Of a DNA stretch of 64,000 bases, positions 35,301 to 59,300 are shown one piece after another (position 1 is the first letter of the stretch; every line of letters starts with the position of its first letter). This DNA is from Tridacna crocea (lineage: Eukaryota > Mollusca > Bivalvia > Cardiida > Cardiidae): NCBI GenBank assembly GCA_943736015.1, contig OX031069.1, positions 37,978,728 to 38,042,727 of the forward strand, in the 5' to 3' direction. The notes below the pieces were generated by a model that worked only from the letters and a program-made list of their open reading frames with translations, was not told the origin of the DNA and searched no databases. The position numbers were made by a program, and so were the translations under genes.

Positions 35301-38300
35301 CAACTGTTTCTGGTTTCGCGGTAAAATTGAACCGGTGTCGCAGTACAGTTACCAATGCGTGAAATATTTTCGGTATAAACAGAGCGATCGATTCAGCAAA
35401 AACAACCGATTAAAAGCCGATTTCAACCAATGTTTTTGATCGGCAATCGGCTTTAAATGAAAACCCTGATATCAATAGTGTATAATTATAGAAGAGATCA
35501 GGCCTCTATAACGTCTTGAAAACAACTGAAAGGAACTTTTCAATTTTGCATGATTTTATACTTTTTCTTGATCATGAAGTATATATATGTATTCATATAG
35601 TACTTGAACATTTCTATAAATTGCTCATAATTAAGTCTTATCAATCCGTAAGGCAATTTTGTACTCGGGTGATAGCATTTCAACGCAGTTAGAATTGGTA
35701 AGATCACAAAAGCACTCATAATGTTCTGTAAGAGAATCGGAAACTAACCAAAACAAATTGTAAAAGAAATTGTTTATGAGACATTTATGGATTTTTGGGA
35801 GTAGTTTACCAAGGGTTACAACCAGTTAATGATGCTTATGGATTGCTACAAGGTATTTACCAGTTAATTATGGAAAATTTTATCCATTGACAGTTGTAAG
35901 AAAATTTTTGGCCTGTCAAAAATTTTGTCCCTACTTTCACAGATCCTCACGAGTGTCTGCAAGTTGTAAGGTGTTATTAATGAATGTGAAAGAGTTATGT
36001 ATGGATGCTTGGAATTGACTGCGAGTTGGCAATCCATAAGGACTCGGAAAAATCCGTTAGAAGGCGGTATATCTTATAGATCTATTTGACACCCTTTACC
36101 AGGGCATGGCTTATATATTAAGTGAGAAACCTACACGATCATAGAAGTTTGGGCTATAAAGGTGGAAAGTATCTTGTACTATAGTGCAAAGCTTAAAATT
36201 ATAGCTATCGGGATTTTCAGTTTCAGCTTGTTGAAAGGGTCTTACGAACAAAGTCCGTAACAAAGAAACAAATGAATAAATGCATGGCAGAAATAAGGAT
36301 CGGAGCGGGATTCGAACTCCGAACTCCCGGACGCAAAGCCAATACCCTAACCACTGAGCCAAAGAGATATCTCCCTGACGCAGTAGCCAGGTATTGTATT
36401 TAAATCGGGAGTATGCCATGCAGGAAGGAGTGGTCTCCCATAACACACCCCCTCTTAAAGTCATCATTTATTGATGACTCAAAGCCTTATTAGGCAGGAA
36501 GTCCGATTATTGGACAACAAATGGGATAAATGGCTCAATGGCCAATCCTGGATGAGCCCCCATCTTACGAACAAAGTCCGTAACAAAGAAACAAATGAAT
36601 AAATGCATGGCAGAAATAAGGGTCCGAGCGGGATTCGAACTCCCGGACGCAAAGCCAATACCCTAACCACTGAGCCAAAGAGATATCTCCCTGACGCAGT
36701 AGCCAGGTATTGTATTTAAATCGGGAGTATGCCATGCAGGAAGGAGTGGTCTCCCATAACAAGGGTGCAAGAGTATCTAAATTATTTTTGTTTTATTTGT
36801 TGTTATTTCTTTTGGATAATTTTTCTTCCGTTGAAAGTCCACCTTGATAAAGAAGGATTTACTAAATTATTATCATTTACAGGTCTAGACTAGGCTGGTT
36901 GATGCTGTTGATGATTAGAGAAAATGTCAAATTTTCAAGGAACATTTCCCAGTATATATTAATTTAAATTTTCAGAACCTATGGTGTTACAAATCTAATG
37001 GACGACCTCAAGTATTTGTACAAGGTTTCTGGAGGTGAAGGTCATGGAATCACTTTCATCTTTACGGACAATGAAATCAAAGATGAAGCATTTTTGGAAT
37101 ATCTCAACAATGTACTGAGTTCAGGAGAGGTTTGTATCATGTCATTCTCTTGTTTTTTTTTCTGGAACAGACATTTTTCTCATTGATGCACACTTCAGTG
37201 AGTGTCTTTGACATTTTCTATTCTCAGAGTACCCCCCATACACAGGACATAAAAATTCTTCCTGTCATGTGAGGTGAACTCTAGGTCTAGTAGCCTTTTG
37301 CTTATGATTGTCCCCTCCAATAATTGAAATATGATTTGACAATATAATAGAAATCATGGCAAAAGCAAAAATAAACGAAACATTACCCTTCATTAAAGTA
37401 GAACAAAAAGCCATACATGTATACAATAATTACCTGTACATGGATCCTATTTGGACAAATTCAATTCCAAATGAAAGATAGTAAGTTTTCAATCAAGAAA
37501 AGTAGTGTTTTCCTAGCATTTAGTAAAGTTTAAAAAAATTTCAGCCTCAGAAATAGGTATTTTCAACAAAACCTGTTGAACGTACAAAGTTTTTTCTGTG
37601 CAAATGTTTTCAAATGTTATTTTTAGTAATATGGAAAGCTGCTTGACTAGAAAAGTTTGCCGGTGAAAAGCAACTGCTTCTTTTATTCCTGTATTTTTGA
37701 AAGCTATCTATTGCAGAAGATTAAAGAGCCACAGTTGTTTGTTAACAAAGTGACAAAAATTATATTAGCATCACTTGCGTAACTAGTTAATTTTTGCGGT
37801 ATTTTTTTTTAACTAGGTTTCAAATTTGTTTGCCAAAGATGAATTAGATGAGATAACTCAAGAGCTAATACCATTGATGAAAAAAGAATTTCCAAGAAGA
37901 CCCCCTACTCCAGAAAACTTATATGACTACTTCATTTCTAGAGCAAGAAATAATCTTCACACTGTTCTTTGTTTCTCTCCAGTATGTTATTTTTGGTTCA
38001 GTCTTCCACCTTGGCAAATTTGTTTCAGAGGATTGATCATAGCAGTTATGAGAGGATTTATTCCTGTCTCACCCCAACCATTATTTTGATGACAGTTTTA
38101 TTGGAAAGCAGCCAGTTGCTTGAAGTAATGGTACAACTCAGCTAGCTGACTCGAACATTATGTTAGACATTAACCTCCATAACTTATGCTATTGAACACC
38201 GGCCCTGTGCTGTTGCAGAAATAACTGTGTATATGCAAATGGCCTATTCAAATTTTATTTTAGACATGAACCTCCAAACCACCTTCTATTGACCAATTAT

Positions 38301-56300: not shown

Positions 56301-59300
56301 TTTCTACCCTTCCTAAAACAAATTTCAATTATTAAGTCACAATTTTTTCGTCGTCTGCAAGTACTTTCAATTTGACCATTTTAAAATTTTGTTGTTGGGT
56401 AAAGAGTTAAAGAATCTTGTGAACACATAAATCAATCTTTATATTTGTATCACTTTTCTACTATAAAGTGATCACCTAGATACAATTTTTATTCTACCTG
56501 GATACTTCTTGTATAAATAGTGAAACATTGCATTTTAAATTTCTTAATGTAATAGGTGTATCTTTTGTGGTATGTTATTTTCAATGGCGTATTTTGGAAA
56601 TGATTAGTTTAAGCCACTGACATGCTTTTGGATGATTAAAAATACTATTACAGTATGAGCAATGCTCCGTGAAAAGTATCAACATAGGTCGGCCTTTGCA
56701 GTATGCACTGACCTGTGCAGTATGCACAGGCTGAACTGGGACAAAACGTTTTGCTGTTAATACAACTGGGTCAGTATTCACCAGCCTTTCTTAAGAATAT
56801 TCTCAGTCTTATCCTTCAAATTAAGGTTATATAAGTTTTAAAGTAATACAACTCCTGACTGGCTAAACCAAATGGTTTAGCTAATCAGATGTTGTATTAC
56901 TTTCAAAACTTTAAAAGAACGAGACAAAGAACGCTCTTATTAATGGTTGGTGAATACAGACCCTGTTGTCTTTTGTAGGCTTGTTGGAGACGTTTTATTG
57001 TGCACAGGATTCTTATCCTATTCTGGACCATTCAATCAGGAGTTTCGAAACAAGCTCATCAAAAACTGGCAGGACGAGATGTATCACAGACAAATTCCGT
57101 TTACAAAGGACTTAAATCTCATCATTATGCTTGTAGACAACGCCACTGTGAGAGCCAATTGATTAAACATTATCTGAATGTATTCTTACGAACGAAGTCC
57201 GTAACAAAGAAACAAATGAATAAATGCATGGCAGAAATAAGGGTCGGAGCGGGATTCGAACTCCAAACTCCCGGACGCAAAGCCAATACCCTAACCACTG
57301 AGCCAAAGAGATATCTCTCTGACGCAGTAGCCAGGTATTGTATTTAAATCGGGAGTATATGCCATGCAGGAAGGAGTGGCCGTCCGTAACACACCCCCTC
57401 TTAAAGTCATCATTTATTGATGACTCAAAGCCTTATTAGGCAGGAAGTCCGATTTTGGACAACAAATGGGATTAATGGCTCAATGGCCAATCCCGGACGA
57501 GCCCCCATCTTACGAACGAAGTCCGTAACAAAGAAACAAATGAATAAATGCATGGCAGAAATAAGGATCGGAGCGGGATTCGAACTCCGAACTCCCGGAC
57601 GCAAAGCCAATACCCTAACCACTGAGCCAAAGAGATATCTCTCTGACGCAGTAGCCAGGTATTGTATTTAAATCGGGAGTATATGCCATGCAGGAAGGAG
57701 TGGTCGTCCGTAACAGTATCTTAACCCTTTACCAAACAATCCCTGGTTTTTACGGCCCTGAGATAGAAGCCTTTTGAAAACATTGTGAGAAAAGGAGAAA
57801 ATGCTGGTAACCAGCATTTTCTCCTTTTCCCACAATGTTTTCTTCCCTCTCCAGAATAGATTTCAAATTTTCAGTCAAATTTATTTTGTCATCTGTAAGT
57901 GCTTTCAATTTGGACCAGTCTAAAATTTCGTTGTTTGGTAAAGGGTTAAGTCTTACTCTGCTTGACAAAACTTTTACAGGCAATGTAGACATACATTAAA
58001 ATTCATCATCTAAGCAGATTGATCTGAATTTACATTGCTTCTTATCCCTTTACCATACAATACTAACTGATAACTATCTCAAGAAAGAAGCCTTCTGAAA
58101 TTAGTGTTGGAAAAGGAGAAAATAATGGTAATCAAGGCTTCAGAAAATATTGCTGGGAAAAGAGAAAAGCCTTTGACCAACATTTTCTCCTTTTCCCACA
58201 ATTTTTTCTACCGTATCAAAGACATCTTCCAGAATTTTAGCCACATTTAATTTGCGTCGCCATGATTGGTTGGGTTTGTACATGTCTGAAATTTTGTCAT
58301 GTGGTAAAGGGTAATGCAGACTAAAAACAATTTGAGAATATGTAAGATTTTCTGGCCAAATATTTGCAGTTGTAAAATTGAGTTATTCTGTACTTTATGA
58401 AAGGCTCCATGTCATTTGCCTGGCACTCGAAAAGTTTAAAGATAAAAGTTTGTTTATTTAGTGGCTGGTCAAAGTTTTTTGATCACTCTTTTAACTCATA
58501 ACCAAACAACAATATTTTAGGCTTGTCCAAATCGAAAGCATTTGCAGACAACAAAATAAAAGTAAATGAAAATTTGAAATTTTTGTTTTGAATGGTAGAA
58601 AACATTGTGGGAAAAGGAGAAATGCTAGTTACCAGCATTTTCTTCTTTTCCCACAATGTTTTCTAAAGGCTTCTTTCTCACTGTCGTGAAAAGTTGGGAT
58701 TGTGTGGTAATGAGTTATGAGCTATTATTCAAATATGGCCCACCCAGGTGGCTCAGTGGCGAGTGTGTCGGACTAATGACCTGGTGGTTGTGAGTTCGAT
58801 ACCAGGTTGAGGTAAACTTTCTTTCCACCGTATTTTCGCCTCTCACCTCTGCTGAAGCATGTGAGAAAAGTCGTTTACATGGCTTTGGAAAGAAAGTAGT
58901 ATTAGTACTGGTATGAGAAAGCCAGGAAACACATGTGCATCGTCAAACGCCATGATCTGACCTTAGCTATTAAAGTGGCGTTATACCTCAACACAACCAA
59001 ATTATTCTAATATGTCTATTTTTTGAAGAAAATGTCAAGATATTATCTGAGCCAAATTGTCATGTGCAAGATCTTGGGAACAGTGAAATGTTCATGTCTC
59101 TATCATAGCCAAGAGGCCAAGAGTTGCAGTCCTTTTATTTGAGATGAAAATCATATATCTTACAGTATTTGGTGTCTTATCTTGGATCTACTGTGTTGGC
59201 TAATTTGTGAAAAAGTTTAAAAATTTCAAAAGTTTGGCCCCCTTTTTTTTAAGCCTGAAAAATCTGTAGTTAGCACTCTAGGGGTACATGAAAGCTAGTT

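Follow-up and report, generated by a model that had tools for sequence, protein, structure and literature searches.

A 64-kb stretch of Tridacna crocea DNA (the window) contains two copies of a miniature LTR element (TRIM) that, judged by their structural features, are of the Helenus type as described by Kojima (2024; PMC10886601). Our preferred reading, to which we assign a probability of about 0.7, is that this element is a non-autonomous miniature LTR retrotransposon transcribed by RNA polymerase III (Pol III) and moved by a Gmr1-like Gypsy element, and that template switches have left chimeric copies. The original prediction knew of no described example of such an element. In this it was mistaken, as TRIMs with tRNA-like LTRs from fungi, plants and six animal phyla were named Helenus in 2024, among them 51 families from five bivalve orders (PMC10886601). 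What is new here, beyond that known kind of TRIM, is a candidate Gmr1-like Gypsy mover, TRIM-Gypsy chimeras in both directions, and, in both window copies, a sense strand free of T4 runs.

Both window copies are real and lie on the minus strand, with the LTR-interior-LTR organization, target duplication, tRNA-Pro primer site and purine tract that had been predicted. Copy B (57184–57715) consists of a 5′ LTR (57508–57715, 208 bp, TGTTACG...CGTAAGA), a non-coding interior of 116 bp (57392–57507) and a 3′ LTR (57184–57391, 208 bp), with the two LTRs 98.6% alike. Its tRNA-Pro primer binding site (PBS; 57490–57507) matches at 18 of 18 positions and touches the 5′ LTR, as anticipated, and the polypurine tract (PPT) AAGAGGGGGTG (57392–57402) adjoins the 3′ LTR. 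The A and B boxes are located at 57619–57629 and 57576–57586 in the 5′ LTR, and at 57295–57305 and 57252–57262 in the 3′ LTR. The element is flanked by the unstranded duplication GTAT (57180–57183 and 57716–57719). Copy A, of the same family (36240–36761), has a 5′ LTR of 199 bp (36563–36761; A box 36667–36677, B box 36631–36641) without a 7-bp inter-box stretch that is present in the other three window LTRs, a primer binding site matching at 16 of 18 positions (36545–36562), an interior of 117 bp, a polypurine tract (36446–36456), a 3′ LTR of 206 bp (36240–36445; A box 36351–36361, B box 36308–36318) and the duplication AGGG, likewise unstranded (36236–36239 and 36762–36765). In both copies the primer site (TGGGGGCTCGTCCGGGAT in copy B) abuts the 5′ LTR, and the LTRs (199–208 bp) have the ends TGTTA...CGTAAGA. 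The ends of both copies had been placed correctly, but their starts one base late; likewise, the duplication that had been put at 4–5 bp is present in both and is exactly 4 bp. The copies have the hallmarks of a TRIM, namely two LTRs, a PBS, a PPT, a length below 1 kb and, as judged from the interior of 116–117 bp, no coding region. Beside copy B, a near-perfect 33-bp inverted repeat is found at 57776–57842.

Copies of the family were counted by sequence-pattern searches of the 1.05-Gb genome, accompanied by control patterns. The LTR-primer junction has 1870 exact matches (control, 0), the LTR core, which corresponds to the A-box core, has 5746 matches within two mismatches (control, 0), and the junction of the purine tract and LTR has 2841 within two mismatches (control, 2). 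Structures were then assigned in two samples, both from one contig: 74 loci from 100 exact purine-tract matches listed on contig C1, and 64 loci from 100 places listed for the LTR core. Both samples are enriched in young copies because exact matches stand first among those listed. The 74 purine-tract loci comprise 60 single LTR-interior-LTR elements, five tandem elements with complete outer LTRs and nine partial or complex loci, such that complete outer LTRs surround the interior in 65. The primer site is identical at 18 of 18 positions in 53 of the 60 two-LTR elements and has one mismatch in the other seven. Solo LTRs account for 14 of the 64 LTR-core loci, each of them with an exact 4-bp duplication; 28 of the 30 loci with a single core were fetched, and the other two have listed primer-site and purine-tract junctions. 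Overall, among 81 complete copies and solo LTRs, an exact 4-bp duplication flanks 78 (77 of 80 distinct ones, as L039 and L098 are the same locus counted twice), compared to a mean of 1.8 and a maximum of 8 for shuffled flank pairs. The complete copies without one are L036 and L065 (one of four bases differs) and L073 (two of four differ). The two LTRs of an element differ by a median of 1.5% across 59 elements and are identical in 13 of them; on sequence grounds, the sampled copies are young. Four loci (L051, L052, L062 and L085) display the tandem arrangement LTR-interior-LTR-interior-LTR, or a longer one, with a single 4-bp duplication around the whole array.

The A box TGGCTCAGTGG and B box AGTTCGAATCC are present at tRNA spacing in all four window LTRs, as predicted, with a start-to-start distance of 36 bp in the 5′ LTR of copy A and 43 bp in the other three. 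Across both strands of the 64 kb, the motif pair occurs four times, exactly in these LTRs, and it is found at tRNA spacing in 109 of the 118 LTRs of 59 sampled elements. The proposed tRNA-type Pol III promoter holds as a motif, but not as a canonical tRNA structure: ARAGORN detects no tRNA gene in the 64-kb window, and a search of the two 5′ LTRs with the Rfam tRNA model (RF00005) gives no match at a threshold as loose as E≤10. A canonical tRNA gene inside the LTR was therefore rejected. The best Rfam rows for the LTR (mir-2066 and other miRNA families) were dismissed, as they are far below the gathering scores and probably reflect a hairpin. The RNA of the copy A 5′ LTR (36563–36761, minus strand) folds far better than shuffled sequences (z −6.4), into a long predicted hairpin in which the region upstream of the A box pairs with the A-box region, with the palindrome GAGATATCTC near the tip. 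Such a hairpin could be a dimer signal or a packaging signal, or could mask the A box in the RNA.

Aligned in the sense direction to the host tRNA-Pro, the 5′ LTR of copy B scores 42, above the maximum of 30 for 1000 shuffles. The similarity of the copy A 5′ LTR is weak (score 29, reached by 3 of 1000 shuffles) and near its antisense score (26, reached by 1 of 1000). No similarity of the window 5′ LTRs to the host tRNA-Leu was detected by alignment. The host tRNA-Pro 3′-end pattern has six exact copies in the genome, and ARAGORN calls a tRNA-Pro at two of the four fetched loci that bear it. A tRNA-family search of the whole genome returned 37 matches among 63 scored candidates. Partial matches (model positions 8–63, 41–43 bits) at 14956021–14956078 of contig C18 and at three similar places could be captured tRNAs, for example in the heads of SINEs.

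Selection on the boxes was examined in two ways. A comparison of variants found in both LTRs of an element with those found in a single LTR, across 59 elements and leaving out sites where more than 80% of the sampled LTRs differ from copy B, as well as one element longer than 650 bp (L123), was not significant. Variants common to both LTRs are absent from the A box and occur at one position of the B box only (A130G, 11 times), and 41% of equally spaced block placements avoid shared variants as well as the boxes do, or better. The other comparison used 32 divergent LTRs (65–88% identical), drawn from older divergent TRIM relatives (L013, L015–L020, L022, L027, L028, L030, L032 and L033) and from other loci, with matches above 88% identity, matches not spanning both boxes and overlapping matches left out of the alignment. 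Identity within the boxes is 82.5% versus 79.9% elsewhere, which provides no significant support for selection on the boxes, and the motif pair is kept in only six of the 32.

The sense strand of copies A and B contains no T4 run. About three would be expected per non-redundant unit of LTR and interior, and none is found in 0.65–1.35% of dinucleotide shuffles; T4-free stretches on the same strand of the window are not very rare, at 3.5% for 324 bp and 0.8% for 532 bp. Sense-strand T4 runs are also absent from 54 of the 60 sampled elements, and one of the six that bear them must be the chimera L123 (see below), with its T4 runs in the Gypsy part. The first T4 run in the downstream flank is found at a median of 62 bp, much like the 58 bp of a control started in the upstream flank. 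As an antisense control, only one of the 60 elements is free of A4 runs, a weak control given that copy B has just one A4 run, located in its interior. The T4-free sense strand fits a Pol III transcript that would be obliged to read through its own LTR, where all copies of this one TRIM family amount to about one independent observation.

Exact tRNA-Pro primer sites that are not preceded by the GA of the TRIM number 22. A match to the TRIM family was seen at 21 of these, the exception being L029. The surroundings of L029 (L114/L115) contain an LTR retrotransposon of the Gypsy type with 560-bp LTRs matching 100%, LTR tips TGTTATG...CGTAACA, a target duplication CTGG, a tRNA-Pro primer site and the purine tract AAGGGGGGAAG. 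Its LTR tips are near-identical to those of the TRIM; the original prediction had suggested looking for a coding relative with the same LTR ends. The Gypsy LTR contains TATAAAA, AATAAA and nine T4 runs. The element has a gag frame with a SCAN domain, and its integrase domains are located upstream of the reverse transcriptase and RNase H (H2C2 in the second frame; rve, RVT_1 and RNase H in the third, as read in one copy). Within L115 (1601–5004), the integrase domains are split across two frames, and one in-frame stop parts the gag frame from the next. Palindromes much like the inverted repeat at 57776–57842 of the window recur around L114/L115, and the L115 Gypsy sits inside one of them; this type looks like an abundant palindromic repeat.

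An integrase placed before the reverse transcriptase marks the Gmr1 clade in the available text of one study (PMC6238403), and, in that of another, SCAN domains are present in over half of frog Gmr elements and in no others (PMC4131045). Both features are shared by the Gypsy found here, which, judged by the domain order of one copy, is Gmr1-like, and which is a candidate mover of the window TRIM rather than the TRIM itself. In the genome, 745 primer sites continue with sequence distinguished from that of the TRIM by three fixed positions. TGGAAA directly follows the primer site, as in the L114/L115 Gypsy, in 93 of the 100 such sites listed (counted by eye; at least two of the 100 are chimeras). 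A search with the Gypsy LTR gave 1917 candidates, of which 40 were scored. TRIM and Gypsy both carry the tRNA-Pro site and a 4-bp duplication, and their LTR tips are nearly identical. Apart from the tips, no clear similarity was found between their LTRs, whose score is reached by 17 of 300 shuffles, or, apart from the primer site, between their interiors, whose score is reached by 88 of 1000. This multi-copy Gmr1-like Gypsy is the likely autonomous partner of the TRIM, a membership based on the domain order of one copy together with the LTR and primer-site counts.

Copies that join the two elements were identified. The one fully read chimera, L123, consists of a TRIM LTR, the primer site, the 5′ part of the Gypsy interior and the final 252 bp of the Gypsy LTR, followed by the primer site, the TRIM interior and a TRIM LTR. 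Its TRIM LTRs are identical (0 of 206 positions differ), its duplication CTTG is intact, and within the Gypsy part the interior is connected to the partial LTR by a second jump, across a few shared bases. L132 is of the reverse type, with a Gypsy LTR end, the primer site, the TRIM interior, one TRIM LTR, the primer site and the Gypsy interior, and is placed between two Gypsy LTRs 5.5 kb apart. In L133 and L134, a TRIM LTR runs into at least 457 and at least 366 bp of Gypsy interior, respectively. These three junction loci (L132–L134) were confirmed by alignment. Pattern searches found 12 exact junctions from TRIM LTR to Gypsy interior, and 19 within one mismatch, the seven inexact ones being ambiguous; junctions from Gypsy LTR to TRIM interior, searched in one spacer form, number four exact and five with one mismatch. 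L123 and L132 are present in both lists. Most of the chimera junctions are known from the short pattern rather than from the whole copy. The chimeras are best explained by template switching of co-packaged RNAs at the shared primer site. Chimeric LTR insertions formed in this way are already known in general; Sabot and Schulman reportedly explained complex LTR insertions in Triticeae by template switching in 2007, as proposed here for the TRIM-Gypsy chimeras.

The chimeras might instead have formed after insertion, by gene conversion or DNA recombination between genomic copies at the primer site that both elements share, and would then be uninformative on shared particles. Identity of about 21 bp around the primer site could seed such recombination, and the many junctions seen as a short pattern leave room for it. 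L123, by its identical LTRs, its intact duplication and its second jump over few shared bases, argues against this and is read as template switching before integration, although it is one chimera; we consider DNA exchange quite unlikely as the general source of these copies.

The mode of transcription can also be read differently, in that the element may be an ordinary TRIM transcribed by RNA polymerase II (Pol II), whose A and B boxes serve no function today and are left over from a tRNA or SINE head captured in the past. Under this reading transcription would be driven by the TTTAAATA box, which might act for Pol II as well and begins some 43 bp upstream of the A box, and both the absence of demonstrable constraint on the boxes in the variant and divergent-copy tests and the failure of the tRNA model to match the LTR agree with it. 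Against it are the motif pair kept in 109 of 118 sampled LTRs, the sense strand of the window copies without T4 runs, and the conservation of the box regions across Helenus families of many hosts, as given in the available text of Kojima (2024; PMC10886601). The window LTRs also lack a poly(A) signal (AATAAA or ATTAAA), and a single AATAAA in each interior might shorten a Pol II transcript. An ordinary Pol II TRIM is unlikely on this balance, though not far-fetched. Far more improbable, to the point of being negligible, is that two tRNA-derived SINEs lie side by side, the alternative the original prediction had named. Each unit does contain an A and a B box, but the interior is fixed, with a purine tract and a primer site, the full structure is present in 65 of 74 sampled loci, and the primer site is kept in 60 of 60 two-LTR elements with at most one mismatch. 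Moreover, all 14 solo units end at the LTR tips within 4-bp duplications, which led us to reject a SINE identity, as this would call for a lone unit that ends in a 3′ tail and lacks the hallmarks of an LTR.

In the preferred reading of a Pol III-transcribed TRIM moved by the Gypsy, transcription would begin ahead of the A box of the 5′ LTR, continue across the body and the 3′ LTR, both free of terminators, and end at a T run in the flanking DNA. The TRIM RNA would enter particles of the Gmr1-like Gypsy and be reverse transcribed from tRNA-Pro, and the Gypsy integrase would recognise the near-identical LTR tips and integrate the product. Where both RNAs occupy one particle, a template switch at the shared primer site would give rise to the chimeras. 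That the Pol III RNA is routinely present in Gypsy particles, that exchange at the primer site runs in both directions, and that the sense strand is kept terminator-free to allow this, is a more specific proposal that we hold at even odds. If it is true, the chimeras physically document which element is responsible for moving an animal Helenus.

The chimeric copies represent physical traces left by the likely mover, and they allow the TRIM-Gypsy pair to be tested. The pairing in view is that of a Pol III transcript copied by the machinery of an LTR retrotransposon, much as SINEs use LINEs, and the absence of terminators provides a simple rule that can be checked in other Helenus families.

Helenus, in the available text of Kojima (2024), was named from sequence alone, is part of a proposed TRIMp3, and has Pol III transcription that is stated as unvalidated (PMC10886601). 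The name is repeated in the available text of a 2026 meeting report (PMC12859917), and no other research paper on Helenus was found in the open literature. In the main text of Kojima (2024), as available, the string "chimer" is absent and terminators are mentioned only for Cassandra (PMC10886601), and a search of titles and abstract openings found no report of TRIM chimeras of this kind. According to the same text, Helenus elements are mostly shorter than 1 kb, have a PBS, a PPT and LTRs with tRNA-like A and B boxes, make 4-bp duplications in animal hosts and also occur as solo LTRs and in tandem arrays; tRNA-Pro is among the bivalve primers and is stated to be used by Gypsy-13_CGi, and a Gypsy is the presumed mover in animals (PMC10886601). 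The window TRIM shares these features, including a PBS common to TRIM and autonomous Gypsy and the 4-bp target duplication. The difference is that the animal mover was there inferred from primer-site similarity (PMC10886601), whereas the present analysis contributes copies that are chimeric with a single Gypsy family.

Two other miniature elements are comparable. The bivalve biv-TRIM, as described in the available text of Satovic et al. (2019), also has terminal repeats of similar length (202–218 bp) and tandem forms; it is set apart by its description, with an interior of 77–80 bp, the PPT GGGGAGA and no unambiguous PBS, in contrast to the interior of 116–117 bp, the PPT noted above and the perfect PBS of copy B (PMC6934838). 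Cassandra of plants is likewise a TRIM with a Pol III-type promoter in its LTRs and tandem LTR-interior arrays; in the available texts, however, its promoter is derived from 5S rRNA and its terminators are conserved, whereas the window copies are of tRNA type and without T4 runs (PMC7215508, PMC10886601).
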